Source: Cyclobacteriaceae bacterium
Lineage (GTDB): Bacteria > Bacteroidota > Bacteroidia > Cytophagales > Cyclobacteriaceae
DNA: 64,000 bases
Direction of reading: 5' to 3'
Assembly: GCA_019694875.1 (NCBI GenBank)
Contig: JAIBBC010000003.1
Location: 612,469 to 676,468, forward strand
A model generated the notes under the pieces. That model was not told the DNA's origin, made no database searches, and worked only from the letters and a program-made list of their open reading frames with translations. Position numbers and translations under genes: made by a program. Positions 8,128 to 19,456 of the stretch are shown here, one piece after another (the first letter of the stretch is position 1; each line of letters begins with the position of its first letter).

Positions 8128-10038
8128 TCACGCGTTTGTACTATCCAGAATTTCGAAGCGTGAATAATTGCTTTTAAACTCCGGCACCATCTCTTTCATC
8201 AACGCAACCATTTTTAACTCATTCTTATCATGAATGAGATCTGCAAGAAGCCCGAGGAAATTGTCGGTTTCATGATATGCGTATTCTGAAACCTTGGCTT
8301 TCAGAATTTTCTCGTGATGTGTAGGGAGTGTATTCTCATGATCATTCAGTAGCTCTTCATATAGCTTTTCTCCCTCGCGCAGACCGGTAAAAACAATGTC
8401 GATATCTTTTCCAATCGTGAGGCCAGACAGCAGTATCATTTTCTTAGCAAGGTCATGAATTCTGATAGGTTTGCCCATGTCGAAAATAAAAATTTCTCCT
8501 CCCCGACCCATAGCGCCCGCTTCCAATACAAGCCTGCATGCTTCCGGGATAGTCATAAAGTAGCGGGTAATCTCCGGATGCGTTACGGTTACCGGACCAC
8601 CTTCCGCGATCTGTTTCCTGAACAGAGGTATAACCGACCCATTAGAGCCTAGTACATTTCCAAAACGCGTGGTTACAAACAAGGTATGATTTGCCCCGCC
8701 CCTTTGAAGGTGATTGTTCAACGACTGCACGTATATTTCGGCAATACGCTTAGAGCAGCCCATAACACTGGTAGGATTAACGGCCTTATCCGTTGATATC
8801 ATTACGAAACGGCCGACTTTGTTTTCGACTGCAAGATCAGCCAAAAGTCTGGTTCCTAGTATATTACACATGGCCGCCTCAGAAGGATTACTTTCCATCA
8901 TAGGCACATGTTTGTATGCCGCTGCGTGCAAAATCAAATCGGGCCGGAACGCCTTAAATATATAACTCATCCGATCCCGGTTGCAGATGTCTGCTACAAA
9001 GATTTTAATTGGTACTGAAACGCCTTTTTGCTTGAGCTCACGTTCAATTTCATAAAGCGGGGTTTCAGCCTGATCGACTAAAACAACAACTGAAGGGTCG
9101 TACATAATTACCTGGCGGGCAAGCTCGCTGCCGATCGACCCTGCCGCACCCGTGATACAAATTACTTTTTGGTGGAGCTCGTGCATCACCTGCTCGTCAT
9201 CCATTTTAATCACCTCACGTCCAAGCAAGTCTTCAATGTTAACTTCCTTGATCTGAGTTAATTTAAATTCACCTTTCACCCACTTTTCGAAAGCAGGAAC
9301 AACTCTGACGCGTATTTGATTAGCTAATGAACGCTCAACAATATCATTTTTACGCGCCAGTGGTAGTTCCCGGATGGAAATGATAAGTTCCTTTATCGAA
9401 AAATTCTTAACCACGGTTTCAAAATCACGCGAATCATAAATCTTACAGCCGTTTACTTCATTTCCTATTTTCCGATGATCATCTTCCAAAAAACCAATAA
9501 CTCGGTAGTTACTCCTCGGATCCGCGTCTATTACTTGCTTGGCGATGACACCTGATTGACCTGCGCCATAGATCAATACGTTCATCTTATCTCCGGCTTC
9601 ACCCTTATAGTAGGCATAAATATTTTTCACCACGAGGCGATAATAAAGCAAGAACAAAAATGAAACGAAGAAGGAAATAACCACAACAGAAAAAGGAATC
9701 AGATTTCGGCCATTGTTGTAGAAATAAATCAGGTTAATAAAGCATATCCCTGCCAGATTGATAAACGATGTATACAAGATATTAATCGCGTCATCAACGC
9801 CCGTGTAACGAACAATACCCGCATAACTACGCGTAAGTAATGACGCACTCACACCCCCAAACGTAATAATTAGTGCACCTGTCACCGGATTAAAGTGCCG
9901 GATTTCTCCTATGTCAAAATTAAATCTTAGTAGGTACCCAATGATGGCTGAAAAGAGAAGAACAAAAGAGTCAATTACAATGATAATCCACCTCGGAAGA
10001 ATGGTAAGTCTTCTGATAAGATCGGAGAAATAGTTCAA
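8128..10038 (-). CDS. UDP-HexNAc 4,6-dehydratase, membrane-bound PglF/WbpM/CapD type
   Basis: Likely makes UDP-4-keto-6-deoxy-GlcNAc, the first step to bacillosamine-type or other 6-deoxy-amino sugars. Four membrane helices fill residues 15-138. A first Rossmann domain follows (GAGQSG 158-163), and then the catalytic SDR domain (GAAGSIG 297-303). The active site reads STDK (415-418), VMGCSKR, with Met (M426) in place of the SDR tyrosine and K430 kept. That change is the hallmark of the long retaining dehydratases such as PglF, WbpM and FlaA1. The 636 residues are typical. It is the last gene of the glycan cluster and only 2 bases downstream of the small exosortase-substrate-like gene. Confidence 0.88.
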   Translation of the reverse strand: MNYFSDLIRRLTILPRWIIIVIDSFVLLFSAIIGYLLRFNFDIGEIRHFNPVTGALIITFGGVSASLLTRSYAGIVRYTGVDDAINILYTSFINLAGICFINLIYFYNNGRNLIPFSVVVISFFVSFLFLLYYRLVVKNIYAYYKGEAGDKMNVLIYGAGQSGVIAKQVIDADPRSNYRVIGFLEDDHRKIGNEVNGCKIYDSRDFETVVKNFSIKELIISIRELPLARKNDIVERSLANQIRVRVVPAFEKWVKGEFKLTQIKEVNIEDLLGREVIKMDDEQVMHELHQKVICITGAAGSIGSELARQVIMYDPSVVVLVDQAETPLYEIERELKQKGVSVPIKIFVADICNRDRMSYIFKAFRPDLILHAAAYKHVPMMESNPSEAAMCNILGTRLLADLAVENKVGRFVMISTDKAVNPTSVMGCSKRIAEIYVQSLNNHLQRGGANHTLFVTTRFGNVLGSNGSVIPLFRKQIAEGGPVTVTHPEITRYFMTIPEACRLVLEAGAMGRGGEIFIFDMGKPIRIHDLAKKMILLSGLTIGKDIDIVFTGLREGEKLYEELLNDHENTLPTHHEKILKAKVSEYAYHETDNFLGLLADLIHDKNELKMVALMKEMVPEFKSNYSRFEILDSTNA

Positions 10039-10040
10039 GG

Positions 10041-10229
10041 TTACTTGTTGTTTTTAGATGACCGGATTTTGTAAATCCCAAGTCCAGCACCAATTGCAAT
10101 AAGAATTCCCAATCCTCCGAACGGCACAGGCGTACCCGGGTCTGGAGGCGGACCTCCACCGGGCTGTGCGATTACCAGGATCGGACAAATAATAAGTATC
10201 AGGCAAACTAAAAAAGTGAAACTTCGCAT
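10041..10229 (-). CDS. Mini protein with signal peptide and exosortase-type C-terminal sorting tail
   Basis: A 62-residue protein with three parts. Residues 1-21 are a signal peptide (LICPILVIA then QPGGG). Residues about 22-39 are a Pro/Gly-rich linker ending PGTPVPFGG. Residues 40-62 are a short hydrophobic stretch (LGILIAIGAGLGIYKI) capped by a basic tail, RSSKNNK. Motif, one hydrophobic helix and basic end are the plan of exosortase substrates. The PVPFGG motif resembles the PID-CTERM signal (PIDGG) known from Bacteroidota. An exosortase and its partner lie 5 kb away in the same cluster. The mature protein would be only about 40 residues. It lies between the T9SS protein and the PglF-like gene, with gaps of 12 and 2 bases. 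Being a substrate is inferred. Confidence 0.7.
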   Translation of the reverse strand: MRSFTFLVCLILIICPILVIAQPGGGPPPDPGTPVPFGGLGILIAIGAGLGIYKIRSSKNNK

Positions 10230-10241
10230 TCGCTCTACCGA

Positions 10242-13200
10242 TTATTTCTTAATGACTTTGCGCGTTAGGTGCTTCCCTCCGCCAGCAACTTGGACAATAT
10301 ACAAACCATTTTGCCAACCTCTCACATCAATCTCAATTGCTTCCTGAGGGGCAAGCGTGTAGAATGGCGTCATCTGCGCACCAACACTGTTCAGAATACT
10401 CAGCTTGGCATTAGTAAGCCCGGTCCAAGTTATGTTGACTTTTTCTGACGTTGGATTCGGGAATATTGCAACGGTTGACAAGATATCTTCAACCGCTCCA
10501 ACCTCGCCTCTCGTGAGATAGAAGCGCGCTGCGTCTGACTCTCCTCCCACAAACGGATACCGGTTATTTTTTGCAAGTGTTACATAAATATTCTCCTGGC
10601 TGTCGTAAAGTTTCCAATGGTCAAGCTTAAATCCATAATGACTCTCGAAACTCAATGTGTATGACTTCCCAATTTCAGAAGTTACGGACAAGGCGTAAAC
10701 TTCATCGTTTTGAATCTTATCCGGTGCATACATCACAAATTTTACACCTTCCGTATCGCGCAATGAAATTCCTAAATCTTCCGATTCCAGCTTTTTTGCA
10801 TTCAAATCACCCTCAAGTTTATCGCCATTCGTATCAATTAAAAACGAATTGTCTTTACGTGTGCCCTGCGAAATACTAAACATTAATTCTGGATATGATT
10901 CCCTCCTTCTGAAGAATGCGCCTGTAGCAGATGTCTTTGCCTGTTCATTGATCGTAAGGGAAGCTGATCCTGTGCCATAAACCCAAAACGATTGGCAACT
11001 GGCAATCACACCATTAGGCAAATCACCCGTGGTACCGTTCCATGTTCGGAAAACACCCGCAGGATCATCCCATACATAAATCGTTGGCGCTATATTCGTT
11101 TTTACCCATCCCGAAGCATTATCCCAATCGATGGATGATGGGTACGGGTTTCCGACAAGGTTCCACCCGTCTGCATTAGGATCAGGGGGAGAAGAAGGCG
11201 TAACTGTTATCGGTAGCGATAGTGTTCCCTTATTAATAGGCCCGGTTACATCCCATGTAATTTGAGATGCCCCCTGCCACATGTATGCCAGATAACCTCT
11301 TCCCACAGCCAACAGACTTGAGTTATTTCCTCCAATTGGAGGATACTGTACATAGCCTTTATTAAAAGGCCCAAGTGTTGGCTCATTATAATACCTAAGG
11401 GAAGGACCATTATTCAAACATCCAGTACAAGGATAACTCGTACCTGTGAAGCTTCCTGTAATTGGAAAATCATCCTGAAGATCTAGGACCCGTGCGTTGG
11501 TTACCGGTGAAGAAATATATCGGTTTACCGGACCTTCCGCACTGTGATAACGCTGCACCACCACGTCACCAACCACATTGGCTGTACCGGGCAGCGGGCC
11601 TATACTTCCATTCCCAGTTGGACCATCAGAAATTGATCGTAAAATCAAATTCCCGTTTGAAGTGACATCTATTCCGGAGGCCTGTATACTAAGCTGCCCG
11701 GTTAACCCCAATTGACTGGATAATAATACGTCAGACGCACCCAACTTATTTACTGTAAGGTTGTTAAATGTAGCTCCATTGGCCGAAATGGTTTGCAGAG
11801 TAGCACCCGTGAGTGTAATTGTGCCATTGTTTGCATTGAAAGTTGCTCCGGACTGTACTGTTATGTTTCCGGAAACACTCACGCTTCCTACAGGAAGCGT
11901 TACCGTGGCACCTGAGTTAACCAAGATTATTCCAAATGAGGGTGTGGATGTACCTCCGATGGTTGTGTTGCCGTCAAATATTACAGTTCCTGTTCCCGGA
12001 TTAAAAATTCCGGCATTATCATTCCAATTGCCCGTCTCGTCCATCGTAATGGTAAACGATCCGTTTGAGAAAGTGCCGCTATTTATGTTAAAACTTCCGT
12101 TGATAACTACGTCCTGATTCAGGTTTACCGACCCATTAACAGTAAGATCATTTAAATCTTCAGTGTTACTTGGCGCAGGCAGCTCCAGACCGGGGGTAAT
12201 CGTGCTACCCGAATAGATCAGGTTGTATGATTCGCCCGGGTCGCTGACCACTCCATTACCCAAAAGCTGGGAAGTTGGGCTTCGTACAATAGTAGCGTTA
12301 TTATCAAGCGTAAGACCACTGGTGTTGGTTAAGTCACCATTGGTAAGATTTAGTGTTGATGTTATAATGATTTGCCCATTAACTGTTGCAGAACCTGCAG
12401 AAGATCTGTTCATAGTCAGTGTACCCAACATGTTTCCAGAGGGACCAGCAAAAGGAGGCAGTGTTCCAAAGGCAGCTGATCCACCGATTGTTAACGTTGA
12501 AGCTGTATTTGAGGAGAGTCGGCCCGCAACCACCGAGCTAGTACCGTTAAGAACTAGATTCTGGCTATTAAATACCAAGTCACCTGAAGTCAAAAACAGA
12601 GTTCCTGTAGTGTTTATTGTTAATCCACTAATGAGTGTGGCTCCGGTAGCACGATTGAGTGTGAAATTTCTTACCGACTGTGCAGAAGGAGAAAATGACA
12701 ATTGGGCAATTGCACCTGCTCCGTTAATTACCAGATCAGAATTTGGCCCTGAGAACGCCAAAAAATTAGCATTCGGAACTATATCTCCTGAAAGAGTGAG
12801 GGTTCTGGCGCCCGTTGTAGATGTCACATTCAAATTACCGTTTAACAGCGTCAACGTTCCACTTATGTTAACTGCAAAAACGTTCGATGCGAAGGAAATT
12901 CCGTTCGTATTATCAATAATTACATTGACTCCTGCCGATGCGGGATGGCCGTCTCCGATAAACTGTTGCCCGGTTGTAGATCGGTAGACAACGGTAGAGC
13001 CGGAGTTAAATACACGAGTAGCGAATGGAGTACGAATATTGCCAAGCGTATTTCCATTGCGGATAGCACCCAACAAGTCCGTTGATTCTGCTACCAATCT
13101 TCCATTAACAGTAAGATCAGAGGTTACTCCCGTTCCGTTTGTACCACCCAAATAAGACGGGTCGGTAATTACCAATTCATCATTAACCGCAATGTTGTAG

Positions 13201-14240
13201 TCAAAGGTACCTGTGAGCGTGCCTGTATTCACGAACGTGTGCACAGATGAATTACTGAAATTCATCACAACCTGTGATGAACTACCATTTTCCCGAATAG
13301 TACCGGCTATGAGTGAGAAATTACTTCCCACATTAAAAGTTGCAATTCCGGTACTTGGATCACCGGCACCGGTATACAGTAGCCCTCCCGGGGCGTTCAT
13401 CGAAAAATGTCGGGTCAGGTTGAGCGTGGTATTTCCAAAAGAACAGATGTATGATCCATTTGCATTTGTGGAGTTATAGATAAAATCTCGTCCAATATTA
13501 ACGGTTGCATCACCATTGATGTTAAGATACAATCTGCATGTACCGAGCACGCTAAAGTCACCTCCAATGCTAAGGGTGCGAGTTTGACCGTTCCCGACAA
13601 TTTGAACCGGCTGTGAATTCGAATTCTGAACAATAAAATCACCTTGAATATTCGTGAGTAGTCCGTTAAAGCTGATCGTTGAAACTTGTGCAGGACAGTT
13701 GTAGATCAAGTGCCCGAACGACTGAGACCATGTTGGTGAAGATAACGTTTTACTGGCCGTCCATGACGTGATCTCAAGCGTTGAATTTGCATCCCAGGTT
13801 GCCAAAGGTACCGCACCTTCAGAGGCTGTATTGAGATGTTGATATCGCGATCCGCTTCTGAAATTCGTATTACCTGCTGTTGTACCAAGGATTACGGCAA
13901 GATCTTGTTTGCTTACTGTACCAGTCACATCCAGTGATCCTGCCCCCGTTAACGTCAAATCATTTCCAGTGCCATTCGCAACGTCCAGAATTCCCCCTGA
14001 ACTCACAATTATCGAACCGGCAACTGTTACCTGATCGACCGTAGCCGTAAAACCATTTGGCACAGTAACTGCGTGATTGACAACAATGGATGTCGAATTG
14101 GCAGCGCTGGGAACACCAGCACCTCCCCAGGTTGACGCCACGTCCCAGGGACCCGGCTGACTGCTGGTAAAAGTCTGTCCAAAACTGGCAGCCGAAAGGC
14201 AGATGAGTAGGAAAAGCAGGCCAACCGAACGATTAAGCAT
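10242..14240 (-). CDS. Large secreted protein with beta-helix-like repeats and T9SS sorting domain
   Basis: A 1332-residue protein with a signal peptide (LLFLLICLSAASFG). Near the N-terminus is WDVASTWGGAGVPSA, a motif seen at the start of many large Bacteroidota surface proteins. About 900 residues of Gly/Asn/Thr/Ser-rich repeats follow, patterned like LTLTGAGSLDVTGT and ITVQSGATFNANNGTI, which suggests a right-handed beta-helix or beta-solenoid. After about residue 950 come YHSAEGPVNRYISSPV and WNLVGNPYPSSIDWDN, a module often placed before the anchor. The last 75 residues (FPNPTSEKVNITW, WQNGLYIVQV, then RKVIKK) are a type A T9SS sorting signal. Secretion across the outer membrane is expected; an adhesive or structural role is a guess. 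A weak -7-like box (TATATTTA, 14268-14261) suggests its own promoter. Confidence 0.88.
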   Translation of the reverse strand: MLNRSVGLLFLLICLSAASFGQTFTSSQPGPWDVASTWGGAGVPSAANSTSIVVNHAVTVPNGFTATVDQVTVAGSIIVSSGGILDVANGTGNDLTLTGAGSLDVTGTVSKQDLAVILGTTAGNTNFRSGSRYQHLNTASEGAVPLATWDANSTLEITSWTASKTLSSPTWSQSFGHLIYNCPAQVSTISFNGLLTNIQGDFIVQNSNSQPVQIVGNGQTRTLSIGGDFSVLGTCRLYLNINGDATVNIGRDFIYNSTNANGSYICSFGNTTLNLTRHFSMNAPGGLLYTGAGDPSTGIATFNVGSNFSLIAGTIRENGSSSQVVMNFSNSSVHTFVNTGTLTGTFDYNIAVNDELVITDPSYLGGTNGTGVTSDLTVNGRLVAESTDLLGAIRNGNTLGNIRTPFATRVFNSGSTVVYRSTTGQQFIGDGHPASAGVNVIIDNTNGISFASNVFAVNISGTLTLLNGNLNVTSTTGARTLTLSGDIVPNANFLAFSGPNSDLVINGAGAIAQLSFSPSAQSVRNFTLNRATGATLISGLTINTTGTLFLTSGDLVFNSQNLVLNGTSSVVAGRLSSNTASTLTIGGSAAFGTLPPFAGPSGNMLGTLTMNRSSAGSATVNGQIIITSTLNLTNGDLTNTSGLTLDNNATIVRSPTSQLLGNGVVSDPGESYNLIYSGSTITPGLELPAPSNTEDLNDLTVNGSVNLNQDVVINGSFNINSGTFSNGSFTITMDETGNWNDNAGIFNPGTGTVIFDGNTTIGGTSTPSFGIILVNSGATVTLPVGSVSVSGNITVQSGATFNANNGTITLTGATLQTISANGATFNNLTVNKLGASDVLLSSQLGLTGQLSIQASGIDVTSNGNLILRSISDGPTGNGSIGPLPGTANVVGDVVVQRYHSAEGPVNRYISSPVTNARVLDLQDDFPITGSFTGTSYPCTGCLNNGPSLRYYNEPTLGPFNKGYVQYPPIGGNNSSLLAVGRGYLAYMWQGASQITWDVTGPINKGTLSLPITVTPSSPPDPNADGWNLVGNPYPSSIDWDNASGWVKTNIAPTIYVWDDPAGVFRTWNGTTGDLPNGVIASCQSFWVYGTGSASLTINEQAKTSATGAFFRRRESYPELMFSISQGTRKDNSFLIDTNGDKLEGDLNAKKLESEDLGISLRDTEGVKFVMYAPDKIQNDEVYALSVTSEIGKSYTLSFESHYGFKLDHWKLYDSQENIYVTLAKNNRYPFVGGESDAARFYLTRGEVGAVEDILSTVAIFPNPTSEKVNITWTGLTNAKLSILNSVGAQMTPFYTLAPQEAIEIDVRGWQNGLYIVQVAGGGKHLTRKVIKK

Positions 14241-14332
14241 AATCAGGCATTCTAAACGTGTAAATATAGGTAAAATAAAACTGAGGTTAACCCGTATAAA
14301 TGAATCGGAGGACAGTTTTGTAACCGGTTTAA

Positions 14333-15472
14333 TCAGCTCATTACCTGCCGTCTAAGCGCTTCAGCGACCCGTGTCCGCTGGCTGTCGGTAAGGTTGGAAC
14401 CAGAAGGTAAGCAAAGCCCTTTTTCAAACAGGCTCTGAGCGACACCGCTGATATATGCAGGACACTCACTGAATACTGGTTGCAAGTGCATAGGCTTCCA
14501 CAAGGGCCTTGACTCAATATTGTCACGCTCGAGCGCCTGCCTAATGGATTCTGGATTAATTGACTGGTTATCAGCGGATTCGAACGTTATAGTCGTAAGC
14601 CACCTGTTCGATTTCATACCTTTCGGTTCCTCCAGGAATTTGACGGGTCCGAATGATCCAAGGGCATCTTTATAAAATTCAAAATTGGCCCTGCGAGACT
14701 TCACACGATCATCCAGAACCCGCATTTGGCCTCTGCCTATTGCTGCAGAAATATTGCTTAACCGGTAGTTATAGCCGATCTGTGAATGTTGGTAATAAGG
14801 GGCTGGATCGCGTGCCTGGGTTGCCAAAAACCTGGCTTTCTGAATCGAGGATTCCGATTTTGAAGCCAGAGCCCCTCCACCGGAAGTCGTGATAATTTTG
14901 TTTCCGTTAAAAGAGTAAATCCCAAAATCTCCAAACGTGCCAAGTTTCTGTCCCTCAAATGTTGATCCCAATGCTTCAGCTGCATCTTCTATTATCGGAA
15001 TCTCGAATTTTTTTGCAACAGACTGAATATCAGCGATTTTAGAAGGCATACCATACAAATGAACAATGATTATCGCTTTAGGTTTTTTACCTGTTTTCTT
15101 GATCCGGTCGGTTATCGCATGCTCCAGCAGTATTGGATCCATGTTCCATGTGTCGGCTTCCGAATCGACAAATACAGGTATCGCCCCGGTGTAGGCGATT
15201 GGATTACATGAACCTGAAAAAGTGAAAGTCTGGCAAATCACTTCATCCCCTGTTCTTACTCCCAGGATAATCAATGCGAGGTGAATGGCTGCGGTACCTG
15301 AACTAAGCGCAGCCACGTGATCGATGCCGTTATAGGCTGCCAGCTCTTTTTCGAATGCGGTGATATGTGGGCCAACCGGAGAAATCCAGTTTGCCTGAAA
15401 AGCTTCCTCAATAAATGGCAATTCCTCTCCGCCCATATGAGGAGATGAAAGCCAAATTCTTTCCTGCGTCAT
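14333..15472 (-). CDS. DegT/DnrJ/EryC1 aminotransferase, PglE/LegC-like
   Basis: PLP-dependent sugar aminotransferase that would aminate a 4-keto-6-deoxy UDP-sugar. The PLP lysine is K192 in YSFNGNKIITTSGGG, the Asp pairing with the pyridine nitrogen is in IIEDAAEALGS, and the substrate side has SSGTAAIHLAL. The N-terminal WLSSPHMGGEELPFIEEAF and the long SFNGNKIITT loop are typical of the PglE/PglC-neighbour subgroup that works in UDP-bacillosamine synthesis. With the PglF-like gene and the NeuD/PglD-like genes it completes a three-step UDP-diacetamido-sugar pathway (inference). The length, 379 residues, is normal. Confidence 0.85.
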   Translation of the reverse strand: MTQERIWLSSPHMGGEELPFIEEAFQANWISPVGPHITAFEKELAAYNGIDHVAALSSGTAAIHLALIILGVRTGDEVICQTFTFSGSCNPIAYTGAIPVFVDSEADTWNMDPILLEHAITDRIKKTGKKPKAIIIVHLYGMPSKIADIQSVAKKFEIPIIEDAAEALGSTFEGQKLGTFGDFGIYSFNGNKIITTSGGGALASKSESSIQKARFLATQARDPAPYYQHSQIGYNYRLSNISAAIGRGQMRVLDDRVKSRRANFEFYKDALGSFGPVKFLEEPKGMKSNRWLTTITFESADNQSINPESIRQALERDNIESRPLWKPMHLQPVFSECPAYISGVAQSLFEKGLCLPSGSNLTDSQRTRVAEALRRQVMS

Positions 15473-15504
15473 AAAATTTAAATCAGCCTTAAAATTATGA
15501 CATT

Positions 15505-15530
15505 AAAACTTGTTTCGCGCCTGGCGCAAG
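15505..15530 (-). terminator. Possible hairpin between the exosortase partner and the aminotransferase gene
   Basis: On the minus strand, CTTG-CGCC pairs with GGCG and, after a bulge, CAAG, and is followed by TTTT. The stem is short and bulged and the U tract is only four bases, so it may attenuate rather than stop transcription. It occupies the only sizeable gap (65 bases) in this stretch of the operon. Confidence 0.25.
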
Positions 15531-15537
15531 CTGTTTC

Positions 15538-15957
15538 TTAACTCTTGTGATGAGTCGAACGCTGATAGTAGAATGCCGGGATGAGCAGTAGGATCAGCGT
15601 TGGATTCAAAATCAACCGGTGAAGAAATGATAATAACGGTCCGTTGTATGAAGGGAAGTTAAGTTTGAGCACAAAGTATGGCAACAAAATAAAGACCGTT
15701 CCAAAGAGTTGAGTCCATAACGCAAAAACAACATATTGGCGTACCGGAAAAAGTGCGTAAATCAATAAGATGGCAAAAAGGTCATTCAGGAAGAATCTGA
15801 TTGAGCGGTTGATAAGAAACTGAACAATCGGTTTTGCATCCGGCATTACAAACGAAGCAGCATTGATATTTTGAAACAGGAATACCAGCAGCAATCCGAG
15901 CACTCCTGCTGCCCCGATCATCGAGCGTAGCAGCACATTAGGGTCAGGTTGTCTCAC
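15538..15957 (-). CDS. Exosortase F system-associated membrane protein
   Basis: A 139-residue integral membrane protein with about four hydrophobic helices. Its motifs, INRSIRFFLNDLFAILLIYALF in two parts (NRSIRFFLND and AILLIYALF) and the C-terminal RLILNPTLILLLIPAFYYQ, fit the small partner that accompanies XrtF exosortases in Bacteroidota. Its role is unknown; constant pairing suggests it assists the protease/transpeptidase in the inner membrane. The start overlaps the end of the exosortase gene by 14 bases, so the two are translationally linked. The family assignment is from memory of motifs, not a search. Confidence 0.75.
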   Translation of the reverse strand: MRQPDPNVLLRSMIGAAGVLGLLLVFLFQNINAASFVMPDAKPIVQFLINRSIRFFLNDLFAILLIYALFPVRQYVVFALWTQLFGTVFILLPYFVLKLNFPSYNGPLLSFLHRLILNPTLILLLIPAFYYQRSTHHKS

Positions 15958-16483
15958 GTTTTTTCAGGTTTCGGATCCACCATAACCAAAGCAGAAGCAC
16001 AACAACATAAATTGCTGCGGTAAACAAGTACTTATGGAAAAAGTACAGCGCGTTAGAATAATAATAGGCAACGAAAAACAAAACACAAACACGGATAAGG
16101 TTGGCCACATGAATTATTAGTGCTCCCGTCACGGCAAAAAATATCAGCCGTTTTCCCCATGGACCAAAAGCAAATAGAAACGACCAGAAAATAATGATCA
16201 CGTTTATCCCGCTGCAGCCTTCATAGACGGATATTATTGATTTGACCTCCAGCACAACTGAAACCGTTGGAACATGTTGACTATACATGGCAACAACATT
16301 CCATCCAAGCACGCGAATTAGGAAGGCCGTTTGATTGGTGACCCAGATCGTAACCGGATCGGGAGCGGGATTATAATACGTAACGAACCAACCGTACAGC
16401 AAACTTCCCGCGACATACATCCCCAGAAATTTCACCAGGAAAAGAATCGTTGGTTTAAACTGTGAAATCAGCGTGGTCTTCAT
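15944..16483 (-). CDS. xrtF: Exosortase, XrtF-like
   Basis: Membrane-embedded cysteine transpeptidase/protease that processes C-terminal sorting tails. The 179-residue protein has about five helices and the exosortase triad: C90 in VYEGCSGINV, R131 in ANLIRVCVLF and H150 in YFFHKYLF. Small size and the adjoining partner gene point to the XrtF subgroup; longer exosortases such as XrtA carry extra N-terminal helices. The start overlaps the stop of the upstream acetyltransferase as ATGA. Location in a glycan cluster is usual for exosortases and suggests that substrate anchoring is tied to the polysaccharide. The only sorting tail seen here is in the 62-residue protein at 10041-10229. Confidence 0.85.
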   Translation of the reverse strand: MKTTLISQFKPTILFLVKFLGMYVAGSLLYGWFVTYYNPAPDPVTIWVTNQTAFLIRVLGWNVVAMYSQHVPTVSVVLEVKSIISVYEGCSGINVIIIFWSFLFAFGPWGKRLIFFAVTGALIIHVANLIRVCVLFFVAYYYSNALYFFHKYLFTAAIYVVVLLLWLWWIRNLKKRETT

Positions 16484-17109
16484 TTTATTGTTCTTGCTGG
16501 AACTCCTACGGCAGTTGTTCCGGAGGCAATATTTGTACGGACTACCGCTCCTGATCCAATTATTGCATCATCTCCTATTTCGGCCCGGTTAATGATGTTA
16601 ACGCCTGAGCCAATAAGGACACGTTTGCCCAATGTAATGCCTCCTGCCAGGTTAACCCCGGGCATGATCGAACAGAAATCATCGATCCTTGTGTTATGTC
16701 CGATTGTACTGTTCAGATTTACGAGGACATGAGAACCTAATTCAATATCAACTGTGAGCTTTACGCCAGCAGTAAGAACTGTCCCTTGTCCAAAGCGGAT
16801 TGTTGACGCATCTCCCAGTACAACTGAAGGGTGAATAATCACCGGAAATTGTACCAATTCTGGTAACATTGAAACAATCTTTTGTTTTATCCGCGGGTCG
16901 CCAATGGCAACAACGGCCTGTGCAGCTTCGGATGTTGAAGCAAGTTGCCTGATGCTTCCGAGAACTTGTAATCCCATTATTGTGGTTCCAGAAGGAACGA
17001 TGTCGTCATAAAAACCGGCAGTCTCGAATTGTTCCGGAAGGGCGCGTATCAGCGCTGCCAACTCCCGCCCAAGACCACCTGCTCCAATAATGAAAATTTT
17101 CTTTTTCAT
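16480..17109 (-). CDS. Sugar acetyltransferase, NeuD/PglD family (copy 1)
   Basis: The N-terminal Rossmann-like PglB_N domain (KKKIFIIGAGGLGRELAALI) is followed by a left-handed beta-helix of hexapeptide repeats (IGHNTRIDDF, VNLAGGITLGKRVLIGSGV, DDAIIGSGAVVRTNI) and ends GVPARTIK. The family transfers acetyl from acetyl-CoA to amino or hydroxyl groups of sugars. The usual catalytic His position is IGHNTRIDDF. With the second copy next to it, one may act on the UDP-4-amino sugar (PglD role) and the other may O- or N-acetylate another sugar such as a nonulosonic acid. Which is which cannot be decided. Confidence 0.83.
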   Translation of the reverse strand: MKKKIFIIGAGGLGRELAALIRALPEQFETAGFYDDIVPSGTTIMGLQVLGSIRQLASTSEAAQAVVAIGDPRIKQKIVSMLPELVQFPVIIHPSVVLGDASTIRFGQGTVLTAGVKLTVDIELGSHVLVNLNSTIGHNTRIDDFCSIMPGVNLAGGITLGKRVLIGSGVNIINRAEIGDDAIIGSGAVVRTNIASGTTAVGVPARTIK

Positions 17110-17723
17110 CAGGCTGGCTTATTGTAGCGGATTATTCTTGCCGGGTTGCCAACAGCTACAGCATGATCCGGAATATCGCGCGTGACAACCGATCCCGCAC
17201 CGACAGTACACCACGCACCGATTTTGATACCCGGGATAATGATTGATCCAGCGCCTATTAATGCACCTTCTCCTACGGAAATTCGACCACATAATGAAGA
17301 CCCAGGTGCGATATGAGCGAAATCGGAGATTTTACAGTCATGATCGATATGGGCCGCGGTATTTACAATTACATGTTTACCGAGAACTGTGCCCTGCTGG
17401 AGAATTACTCCATGCAGCACCATACTCCCTTTCCCGATCGTGGCATATCGTGAGACAATTGCGGTTTTATCAATTGAAGTGGTGAACGGATGTTTGATGT
17501 CCTGACTAAGTTGTTGACGTACATGATTTGCTCCGATGGCTACAATTGCCTCGCTTTCCGGATACAGTTCGGATTTGTAAAAACCAAGCACCGGAGTATT
17601 CATAAACTGCTGTCCGTCAAACTTAGGATCAATCATGGCCAGTACAGTGCGGCCGGCAGCATGCAGCGAATCGAGTACTACCCGCGCATGTTCACCCGCA
17701 CCGATGAGGATAACGTTATGCAT
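17109..17723 (-). CDS. Sugar acetyltransferase, NeuD/PglD family (copy 2)
   Basis: Same architecture as its neighbour: MHNVILIGAGEHARVVLDSL, then hexapeptide repeats with AAHIDHDCKISDFAHIAPGS and GAGSIIIPGIKIG, ending VAVGNPARIIR. The AAHIDHDC motif matches the catalytic His region of PglD, making this copy the better candidate for the bacillosamine-type N-acetyltransferase. It lies directly after the PglC-like transferase gene, which it overlaps by 8 bases, as in classical pgl order. Start and stop of the two NeuD-like genes share one base. The copies differ widely in sequence, so this is not a recent duplication. Confidence 0.85.
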   Translation of the reverse strand: MHNVILIGAGEHARVVLDSLHAAGRTVLAMIDPKFDGQQFMNTPVLGFYKSELYPESEAIVAIGANHVRQQLSQDIKHPFTTSIDKTAIVSRYATIGKGSMVLHGVILQQGTVLGKHVIVNTAAHIDHDCKISDFAHIAPGSSLCGRISVGEGALIGAGSIIIPGIKIGAWCTVGAGSVVTRDIPDHAVAVGNPARIIRYNKPA

Positions 17724-18321
17724 TTCCTTTAAACTTTTCCATAGTCACTGATTGTTCGCTACTAATGCCTTCTGCTCGCAACACCTTGAGCACTGTCAGT
17801 AACAGGATTTTAATATCCAGAAAAAAAGACACATGATCAACGTACCATGTGTCATATTCAAACTTTTTCTCCCAACTGATTGCATTACGTCCGTTTACCT
17901 GAGCCCAACCGGTGATTCCGGGCTTCACCTCGTGTCGCCTGCGTTGCCGGGCATCATATAACGGCAAATATTCTGTGAGAAGCGGTCGTGGGCCTACGAA
18001 AGACATGTCGCCTTTGAGTACATTAATTAATTGGGGAAGTTCATCAAGCGATGTTTTGCGAACAAATTTACCGACACCCTTCAGGCGTTTTTCGTCTGGA
18101 AGTAAGTTTCCTGACGCATCGCGTTCATCGGTCATCGTTTTAAATTTTATAACGTAAAACGTTTTGCCTTTCAAGCCCGGTCTTGCCTGTACAAAAAAAG
18201 ATTGCCCTTTATTCGCAAAAAACAATCCGATGAATACAAATAACGTAATTGGCAAAGTAATAAACAGCGCTGCAGCCGAAAACAAGACATCAAAAAATGG
18301 CTTTATAAAACGGATGTACAT
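17716..18321 (-). CDS. Undecaprenyl-phosphate sugar-1-phosphate transferase, PglC-like
   Basis: Initiating phosphoglycosyl transferase that loads the first sugar-1-phosphate on undecaprenyl phosphate at the inner membrane. It is the short monotopic form: one re-entrant hydrophobic helix (PFFDVLFSAAALFITLP), then FVQARPGLKGKTFYVIKFKTM, the catalytic Asp-Glu pair in RKTSLDELPQL, GDMSFVGPRP, and PGITGWAQVNGRN. Size (201 residues) and context with PglD-, PglE- and PglF-like genes favour UDP-diNAc-bacillosamine or a relative as donor; UDP-Gal or UDP-GlcNAc cannot be excluded. Confidence 0.88.
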   Translation of the reverse strand: MYIRFIKPFFDVLFSAAALFITLPITLFVFIGLFFANKGQSFFVQARPGLKGKTFYVIKFKTMTDERDASGNLLPDEKRLKGVGKFVRKTSLDELPQLINVLKGDMSFVGPRPLLTEYLPLYDARQRRRHEVKPGITGWAQVNGRNAISWEKKFEYDTWYVDHVSFFLDIKILLLTVLKVLRAEGISSEQSVTMEKFKGNA

Positions 18322-18325
18322 GGTG

Positions 18326-19456
18326 TCAGCGTATGTTCATGAATTTAAGCATCGCATTGTTAACTGCAGAGACGTCAAACTTCTCTTTGGCAAGCCGGAC
18401 ACTTGCCTTTCCCATCATCTCAATTTTTTCGGGATCTTCCAAGAGAGCTTTCATTGCATTTACCAAGGGCTCAAGTTGTTTCTTAGCAATCAGGAAACCG
18501 TTTACCCCCGGCTGAACAGTTTCCCGACAGCCGGTGTTATCGGTGGTGATTACAGGCTTTCCCATCGCCAACGCTTCCAGGATTGTTCTTGGAACGCCTT
18601 CGCGATACCACGAGGGCAAAACAAATACCGATGCCATCCTCAAAAACGGCCTGACATCATTCTGAAATCCATGAAAGATAATAATTCCCGAGTCGATTGC
18701 CGACTTAAGTTCCCCCGTTGAAATCGAATCCGGATTGTGCTCGTCAATCTGTCCGATCAGGTGAAATTCCGTTTCAGGTGAAATGCGTTTGATTTCCTGA
18801 GCAGCCTTCAAATACAAACCAACTCCTTTCGCGTGAATAAGCCTCGCGATAAGAATGAAGCGCACGGGATTTTTAACAGCCGGTGTAACTTCAAACTGCG
18901 AAAGATTAACACCCGACCCGTTTACAACTTCTGTTGGTGTTGTATTGCCAATAAGCTTTTCAGTCAGGAAATAAGTCCGATCATCGTTATTCTGAAACAT
19001 CACCCCTGCACTTTTTCTCAGGCCTATGCGGTATAACTTCAGGATAAACATCCTGATTACCTTTTTGAACGCTCCGCCTGTTTCTGTTTCCAGATAGCCG
19101 AGACCTGTAATCAGCGCATACATTTTCGTATTGAAAAAGCGTGAGGCCATGCCGCCATAAATTACCGGTTTGATCGTATACGCGAGTACATGGGTTGGTT
19201 TATAGGCTTTGATTATTTGAGTGAGCCGAATGAAGAAACCCAAATCCCGGAACGGATTAAAGCCCGTTCGTGAAAGTGGCACTGACTGATACCGGATTCC
19301 AAGCGCTTCAAGCGCGGGACCAACCTCGGGTGAGTCGTTGTGGGCGACCGCGAGCACCTCGTAACCCTCTTTCCTGAATTCCAAAAGAAGATCCTTACGA
19401 AATAACAGGATGGACCGGTTATAGCTTGCGATAAGGAGCAGTCTTTTCTGTTTCAA
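18326..19456 (-). CDS. Glycosyltransferase family 4, PglA-like
   Basis: GT-B retaining glycosyltransferase of 376 residues. The N-terminal domain starts KRLLLIASYNRSILLFRKDL and includes TGLGYLE. The C-terminal donor site has FILIARLIHAKGVGLYLKAA, a lone aromatic plus VLPSWYREGVPRTILEALAMG (the EX7E motif begins at the Glu of YREGVP) and GKPVITTDNTGCRETV. The YREG and TDNTGCRE forms are typical of PglA/WbpH-like HexNAc transferases that add the second sugar. It overlaps the upstream Wzy-like gene by 38 bases, which is long for this cluster. No alternative ATG nearby would remove the overlap. Confidence 0.86.
   Translation of the reverse strand: MKQKRLLLIASYNRSILLFRKDLLLEFRKEGYEVLAVAHNDSPEVGPALEALGIRYQSVPLSRTGFNPFRDLGFFIRLTQIIKAYKPTHVLAYTIKPVIYGGMASRFFNTKMYALITGLGYLETETGGAFKKVIRMFILKLYRIGLRKSAGVMFQNNDDRTYFLTEKLIGNTTPTEVVNGSGVNLSQFEVTPAVKNPVRFILIARLIHAKGVGLYLKAAQEIKRISPETEFHLIGQIDEHNPDSISTGELKSAIDSGIIIFHGFQNDVRPFLRMASVFVLPSWYREGVPRTILEALAMGKPVITTDNTGCRETVQPGVNGFLIAKKQLEPLVNAMKALLEDPEKIEMMGKASVRLAKEKFDVSAVNNAMLKFMNIR

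Follow-up and report, generated by a model that had tools for sequence, protein, structure and literature searches.

A 62-residue candidate substrate of exosortase XrtF encoded next to a type IX secretion cargo in a Cyclobacteriaceae sugar operon

Introduction

Which protein does the exosortase XrtF process, and what would the product be for? In the available text of a 2024 study of Flavobacterium johnsoniae, the substrates of the exosortase were left as future work (PMC10936215). We approached this question through a window of 64,000 nucleotides (nt; the whole stretch of DNA that was analysed, contig JAIBBC010000003.1, positions 612,469 to 676,468) from a Cyclobacteriaceae bacterium, where an xrtF operon rich in sugar genes also contains a gene for a protein of 62 amino acids (aa) that is nearly all sorting signal. 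We refer to this candidate XrtF substrate, its gene, and its relatives as "tiny." Its short, defined product makes it a concrete candidate that could be found by mass spectrometry, so that the open question of XrtF substrates becomes testable. Because tiny is usually encoded right after a cargo gene of the type IX secretion system (T9SS), the data suggest that two surface-sorting systems cooperate.

Results

A small protein with the architecture of an exosortase substrate

The features first needed are the following:
10041..10229, minus strand: tiny gene, 62-aa candidate XrtF substrate (PID_CTERM 20.9 bits, cut-off 26)
10167..10229, minus strand: predicted tiny signal peptide, residues 1-21 (by eye and helix model)
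10113..10166, minus strand: predicted mature peptide of tiny, residues 22-39, QPGGGPPPDPGTPVPFGG
10044..10112, minus strand: tiny hydrophobic helix and basic tail (RSSKNNK), residues 40-62
15944..16483, minus strand: exosortase XrtF (TIGR04128 116.1 bits, cut-off 90; catalytic C90, R131, H150)
15538..15957, minus strand: XrtF-associated membrane protein (TIGR04127 48.7 bits, cut-off 35)

The tiny product starts with a signal peptide, which was assigned by inspection and from the predicted helices rather than by a signal-peptide program, and continues with an 18-residue Pro/Gly stretch ending in PVPFGG, a hydrophobic helix, and a basic tail at the extreme C terminus, i.e., with the parts of an exosortase substrate in their usual order. 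A preliminary description of the window had given the coordinates, the sequence, and this layout exactly. The cut is predicted before Q22, and a Q stands there in all 43 aligned sequences. Structure prediction returned helices at residues 2-20 and 38-60 with coil between them (mean predicted local distance difference test score, pLDDT, 80.4). PID_CTERM (NF046080), the nearest curated model, matched residues 38-56 with an E value of 2.4e-4, and the Pfam search with the tiny protein gave no match. We regard tiny as a strong candidate for the substrate of XrtF that had been missing, albeit one that scores under the cut-off of that nearest model.

The enzyme lies 5.3 kb away, with tiny downstream of it. 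As had been proposed, it carries the Cys/Arg/His triad and has a partner membrane protein, here a TIGR04127 member; it scores above the 90 bits of its family model, and C90, R131, and H150 are invariant across 66 aligned XrtF proteins. The predicted XrtF structure is confident (pLDDT 94.5); a fold search with it against the Protein Data Bank (PDB) found nothing below E 0.97, and the XrtF profile had no match among PDB sequences at E ≤ 1. The whole genome of the window holds a single exosortase over the cut-off and, as the genome-wide search suggested in the preliminary description brought out, a single PID-CTERM-like match at E ≤ 10, which is the tiny gene.

The mature stretch is under purifying selection

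A comparison of the window with its nearest relative (locus L130) revealed 19 changed codons and not one amino-acid change in residues 22-62, with 9 of 18 codons differing in the mature stretch and 10 of 23 in the helix and tail; the 21-residue signal peptide had 9 amino-acid changes. The ratio of nonsynonymous to synonymous differences (pN/pS) was 0.17-0.41 in the seven pairs tested. Because residues 22-62 stayed unchanged despite the 19 altered codons, and because of these ratios, tiny is a real gene and its mature stretch is under purifying selection. A chance open reading frame (ORF) is ruled out by this test. In all 43 aligned sequences, the distance from Q22 to the conserved G was 15-26 residues (median 17), a product too short for an enzyme, as had been argued before. 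The aligned motif reads VP[ILF]xG[ILV], with V in 42 of 43 sequences (I in the remaining one) and both P and G in 43 of 43; an E follows the motif in 38 of them, where the window has G.

tiny and the exosortase occur together

Among 148 genomes of the same family as the window, TIGR04128 matched 54 at E ≤ 1e-5, 39 of them over its cut-off. A tiny profile built from 28 small proteins matched 58 of the 148 at E ≤ 0.01, of which 52 were kept at E ≤ 1e-6 (dropped were G045, G083, G086, G105, G131, and G147, four of them with matches in frames of at least 172 aa). Both genes were found in 49 genomes, the exosortase only in 5 (G032, G066, G083, G131, and G147), tiny only in 3 (G044, G056, and G129, assemblies of 140-570 contigs), and neither in 91 (Fisher p = 1.3e-29), so that tiny was present in 49 of the 54 exosortase-positive genomes versus 3 of the 94 negative ones, and in 39 out of 39 of those over the XrtF cut-off. 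Counted by genera, the exosortase occurred in 33 of 84 and tiny in 35 of 84. The PID_CTERM model matched 42 of the 148 genomes at E ≤ 0.05, 38 of them exosortase-positive. For 295 genomes at the class level, the corresponding counts were 143 with both, 17 with the exosortase only, 21 with tiny only, and 114 with neither (p = 1.6e-40); both Fisher values ignore relatedness and hence overstate independence. Absences of tiny are soft, since only a limited number of first-look candidates was scored per genome (at most 20 at the class level and 41 at the family level). As a control, TIGR04128 matched 0 of 14 named genomes, while PID_CTERM, always below its cut-off, matched 1 of the 14 at E ≤ 0.05 and 9 at E ≤ 10. 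When small proteins were instead sought by hydrophobicity, the hits included numerous fragments of XrtF and its partner, and many of the copies detected by the profile were overlooked.

Seen from the other side, TIGR04128 matched 49 of the 52 family genomes and 143 of the 164 class genomes with tiny. Among the 21 class and 3 family genomes with tiny only, 12 matched the general exosortase model TIGR04178 at E ≤ 0.01; 11 of these exceeded its cut-off, all among the class 21, and two (G148 and G367) did so in frames of about 450 aa. The preliminary description had held that finding the small gene without an exosortase would count against its substrate proposal: Such genomes are rare in the family (3 of 52), yet at the class level 21 of 164 lack a TIGR04128 match, even if 11 of these pass the general model. 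Exceptions exist, and most are incomplete assemblies or have weak matches. The proposal of a minimal candidate substrate for XrtF is supported, and we consider tiny very probably to be a dedicated one.

We also scanned named genomes with the XrtF alignment and examined the best 80 of 97 confirmed loci, mostly from Cyclobacteriaceae and relatives, 44 of which carry a tiny gene. Where at least 9 kb downstream of xrtF was available, tiny was present at 42 of 55 named loci (43 of 56 with the window itself), 41 times downstream on the same strand and once upstream (L145), at a downstream distance of 3.0-8.2 kb (median 6.5, window included). In the recurrent order, a PglC-like gene is followed by one or two NeuD-type genes, XrtF, its partner, a PglE-like gene, the T9SS cargo, tiny, and a PglF-like gene; the order varies among the named loci, with, e.g., the PglE-like gene ahead of XrtF. 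The 13 loci without tiny were L134, L136, L157, L161, L174, L176, L177, L187, L188, L193, L194, L196, and L209. For some of them, tiny was found elsewhere in what appears to be the same genome: about 27 kb off for L157 (L100, G024), just outside L161 (G122), and on a separate contig for L174 (L101, G055) and L136 (G136).

tiny follows a type IX secretion cargo

Directly upstream of tiny lies a cargo gene:
10242..14240, minus strand: T9SS cargo, 1332 aa, ending 12 nt before the tiny gene
10245-10466, minus strand: type A sorting domain of the cargo (Por_Secre_tail at the C terminus, 38.4 bits, cut-off 23)
10500..11570, minus strand: conserved domain of the cargo, about 357 aa, without a Pfam or NCBIfam match, single copy in the genome

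The tiny gene starts 12 nt after this cargo gene and ends 2 nt before the PglF-like gene, if the listed TTG start of the latter is right. The sorting domain is common in the window genome, with 44 matches of which 43 exceed the cut-off. The conserved domain was matched by no Pfam or NCBIfam model when cargo proteins were scanned; it spans about 300-357 aa with the consensus DGWNLVGNPYPSxIDWD...GQAFWV and was seen in 65 of the 148 family genomes, 14 of them without an exosortase match.

A homologue of the window cargo lay directly upstream of tiny on the same strand in 79 of 82 tiny loci, or 64 of 67 distinct sequences (the numbers differ because loci L043-L102 and L130-L209, from two collections with species in common, partly overlap), and all 79 of these cargos carry the conserved domain. 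The pairing was kept where xrtF is not near (L100 and L101) and where the exosortase is a more distant one, which is adjacent in L077, L079, L080, and L087 and two ORFs away in L083. The idea that tiny is a mere neighbour of XrtF was rejected, since it follows the cargo even where XrtF is elsewhere. In the 148 genomes, 75 of 87 tiny genes (the rows of the tiny profile plus two rows from the PID_CTERM search) were preceded by the domain, on their own strand and no more than 4 kb away, and a closer reading added three more; for the domain counts, 6 short fragment rows were dropped from 150 matches.

Three genomes contain 12, 10, and 11 tiny genes, and in 31 of these 33 cases the preceding gene encodes a cargo that carries the domain. 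In these genomes (G007, G112, and G133; L230-L262), we observed dispersed families of 10-12 tiny genes of the PID type, mostly as two-gene cassettes with a T9SS cargo. The mature products of such multicopy genes are often about 12 residues long and near-identical (QGAPPATPIDGG); the peptide hence looks generic, while the cargo differs. We judge a functional link between tiny and the T9SS cargo to be likely. In the literature searched, which was mostly open-access and largely titles and abstracts, we found no publication on this pairing.

Some further variants were seen. The cargo upstream of tiny in L087 (L087:10483-12600) matches part of the cyanobacterial PEP-CTERM protein ScyF with 108.9 bits (cut-off 350), a protein that elsewhere bears the exosortase signal itself. 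The flavobacterial genome G308 has one tiny-cargo pair and a second tiny gene whose cargo neighbour is oppositely oriented. Six class-level loci (L217, L219, L221, L224, L226, and L228) share the tiny motif CWPPPC[VI]P[IV]DGG; an exosortase is labelled adjacent in five of them, and the nearest large upstream gene encodes, in place of a T9SS cargo, a protein of about 790-810 aa on the opposite strand.

Sugar genes surround xrtF

The remaining genes of the operon are mostly for sugar synthesis:
8128..10038, minus strand: PglF-like UDP-GlcNAc 4,6-dehydratase (5bju, E 1.2e-93)
14333..15472, minus strand: PglE/LegC-like DegT aminotransferase (1o61, E 5.1e-102; 4ztc, E 2.8e-101)
16480..17109, minus strand: NeuD/PglD-type acetyltransferase 1, overlapping xrtF by 4 nt (TIGR03570 178.1 bits, cut-off 160.8)
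17109..17723, minus strand: NeuD/PglD-type acetyltransferase 2 (TIGR03570 218.8 bits)
17716..18321, minus strand: PglC-like phosphoglycosyl transferase (8g1n, E 1.9e-74)
18326..19456, minus strand: glycosyltransferase-like gene, named by eye, with a homologue in 37 of the 80 named loci (best 80 of 97)

Within this Pgl-type set, the PglF, PglE, and PglC matches are strong and the PglD match is weak: The acetyltransferase at 17109-17723 is nearer to a perosamine N-acetyltransferase (6.1e-39) than to UDP-N-acetylbacillosamine N-acetyltransferase (about 4e-18). By homology, the sugar genes point to a diacetylbacillosamine-type polyprenyl-linked sugar as the putative product. The tandem NeuD/PglD-type genes (16480-17723) are kept in four Marivirga loci (L174, L187, L188, and L196) that lack the other Pgl-type genes nearby.

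Discussion

We propose that signal peptidase I would expose Q22 of tiny, which is probably cyclised to pyroglutamate, and that XrtF may cut at or just past VP-x-x-G and transfer the 18-residue peptide through its new C terminus to an acceptor. This acceptor is most likely a lipid or glycan produced by the PglF-, PglE-, and PglC-like and NeuD/PglD-type enzymes of the XrtF operon. At the cell surface, the resulting conjugate could anchor, dock, or cap the T9SS cargo whose gene lies directly upstream. An enzyme beside acceptor-type genes and a peptide gene beside a cargo gene are what would be expected if an XrtF-made conjugate serves the cargo. As a whole, i.e., an XrtF substrate whose conjugate serves the upstream cargo, we give this explanation a probability of roughly 0.6. 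Its parts differ: Conjugation to a lipid or glycan is close to an even bet, leaning slightly toward the negative, and a docking or anchoring role is tentative. If docking holds, then the recombinant cargo domain would be expected to bind the synthetic peptide QPGDPGGDPDVPITG. A more general picture, which we put forward as speculation, is a two-part device in which an exosortase ligates a generic, probably pyroglutamyl peptide of 12-26 residues to a lipid or glycan and this peptide anchors or docks the cargo via the conserved ~300-aa domain of the latter, the gene pair moving and multiplying as a unit with the exosortase and acceptor genes elsewhere.

Indirect support, by analogy, comes from F. 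johnsoniae, where, according to the available text, deletion of xrtF or its partner falls in the same phenotype row as deletion of the T9SS genes porU and porZ, with reduced sand colonisation, much reduced biofilm, and abolished zorbs (PMC10936215). The roles that the preliminary description had offered for the product fared unevenly: An anchor fits the cargo context best, whereas primer and decoy were unsupported guesses. That description had not foreseen the T9SS cargo pairing, the Pgl-type sugar genes, or the common descent with PID-CTERM proteins.

Several observations weigh against our explanation. In four loci that contain cargo, tiny, and exosortase (L077, L079, L080, and L083), none of the neighbours is PglC-, PglE-, or PglF-like, and in L101 tiny is not followed by a PglF-like gene; since Pgl-type genes are missing beside some tiny genes, their product need not be the acceptor. 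G410 and G433, which are 98% and 96% complete, have four and two tiny matches and no exosortase was found in them, while, conversely, the 17 exosortase-positive class genomes without a tiny match are counter-examples worth noting. Among nine flavobacterial genomes with XrtF above 200 bits, four (G363, G337, G167, and G436) had no convincing tiny protein, and in another four (G211, G246, G389, and G278) tiny was not beside a T9SS cargo. Outside the family, 11 of 20 class-level loci have a cargo directly upstream (small opposite-strand ORFs being disregarded), recognised by its sorting domain, by the conserved domain, or by the two together; the conserved domain was present in 10 of the 11. Last, no tiny neighbour was found for 54 of the 127 copies of the cargo domain from exosortase-positive genomes or for 15 of the 17 from negative genomes; as a strict marker of the system, the domain was rejected on the former count.

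The best-surviving alternative is that tiny stays uncleaved in the membrane as a two-helix microprotein whose role is to regulate or stabilise XrtF, the polysaccharide machinery, or the T9SS. The two predicted helices with a short coil between them, the tight gene spacing of 12 and 2 nt, and a helix and tail conserved as much as the mature stretch between the window and L130 would all fit. A glutamine after the cut reportedly marks signal peptidase I substrates of Bacteroidetes, and the Q that follows the hydrophobic N terminus in 43 of 43 XrtF-type sequences conforms to this; moreover, the tail is related to PID-CTERM sorting signals, and 10-12 similar copies in three genomes, 31 of 33 beside a cargo, would be odd for a regulator. 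We hence hold a microprotein to be unlikely. Improbable as well is a peptide that primes or terminates the polysaccharide of the operon, with the cargo being a neighbour that only shares regulation: The PglC-like initiating enzyme and the other sugar genes favour it, but cargo and tiny stay together in the four loci without Pgl-type neighbours, and the cargo link is the stricter one. We give still less credit to the idea that the peptide is secreted as a signal or pheromone and simply trimmed by XrtF; a conserved product of very small size, with an N terminus that is probably blocked, and the single tiny match in most positive family genomes would suit it, but the linker length varies, similar peptides occur in many copies that mostly adjoin T9SS cargos, and no receptor or regulator was recognised among the conserved neighbours identified, of which not every ORF was classified. 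A decoy or junk remnant of a longer sorted protein, suggested by minimal size only, is very improbable given the wide conservation of tiny and the purifying selection on it (pN/pS 0.17-0.41, no change in residues 22-62 over 19 altered codons).

Our preferred explanation, a peptide that XrtF conjugates for the benefit of the cargo, would tie an exosortase to both a T9SS cargo and a sugar pathway. If this link is true, then exosortase sorting and T9SS sorting in Bacteroidota are not separate routes.

Comparison with known systems

The closest relatives are the PID-CTERM proteins (NF046080), with which tiny shares a C-terminal motif, hydrophobic helix, basic tail, small size, and an exosortase in the genome. 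An alignment of tiny against one of PID-type small proteins gave an hhalign probability of 99.3% (E 4.4e-20, with one mistyped residue in the latter alignment), which argues for shared descent. Unlike PID-CTERM proteins with their PIDGG, tiny has VP[ILF]xG[ILV], mostly with E next, and PVPFGG in the window, a difference that the preliminary description had rightly stressed. Its reading of the C terminus as a sorting signal holds insofar as a model match is present, yet this match, at 20.9 versus 26 bits, stays below the curated cut-off, and a match at E ≤ 0.01 was obtained for no more than 15 of the 43 sequences.

The Campylobacter Pgl pathway makes diacetylbacillosamine. The window has homologues of PglF, PglE, and PglC at E 1e-74 to 1e-102, whereas the acetyltransferase tested is nearer to the perosamine enzyme than to PglD. 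In the PEP-CTERM/EpsH system, an exosortase within a polysaccharide locus sorts larger proteins with a PEP motif; tiny, in contrast, is one substrate, nearly all signal, and has no PEP motif. Common to both are the location of the exosortase within a polysaccharide locus and the tripartite C-terminal signal (PMC7468200, available text). The same source discusses sugar-synthesis genes together with sorting systems (PMC7468200). The T9SS type A cargo of Porphyromonas, which is attached with an anionic lipopolysaccharide (A-LPS) linking sugar, resembles the window cargo in its C-terminal sorting domain (PMC7468200), whereas the window cargo is paired with a separate peptide gene of the exosortase type.

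With respect to the XrtF system itself (TIGR04128 and TIGR04127), the enzyme and partner of the window are full members. The available text of PMC10936215 names no substrate for it, and the window adds a candidate, in an operon that also holds Pgl-type genes and a T9SS cargo. The tiny system remains a variant of exosortase sorting, in which the steps that would follow from tiny being a substrate are those we infer.

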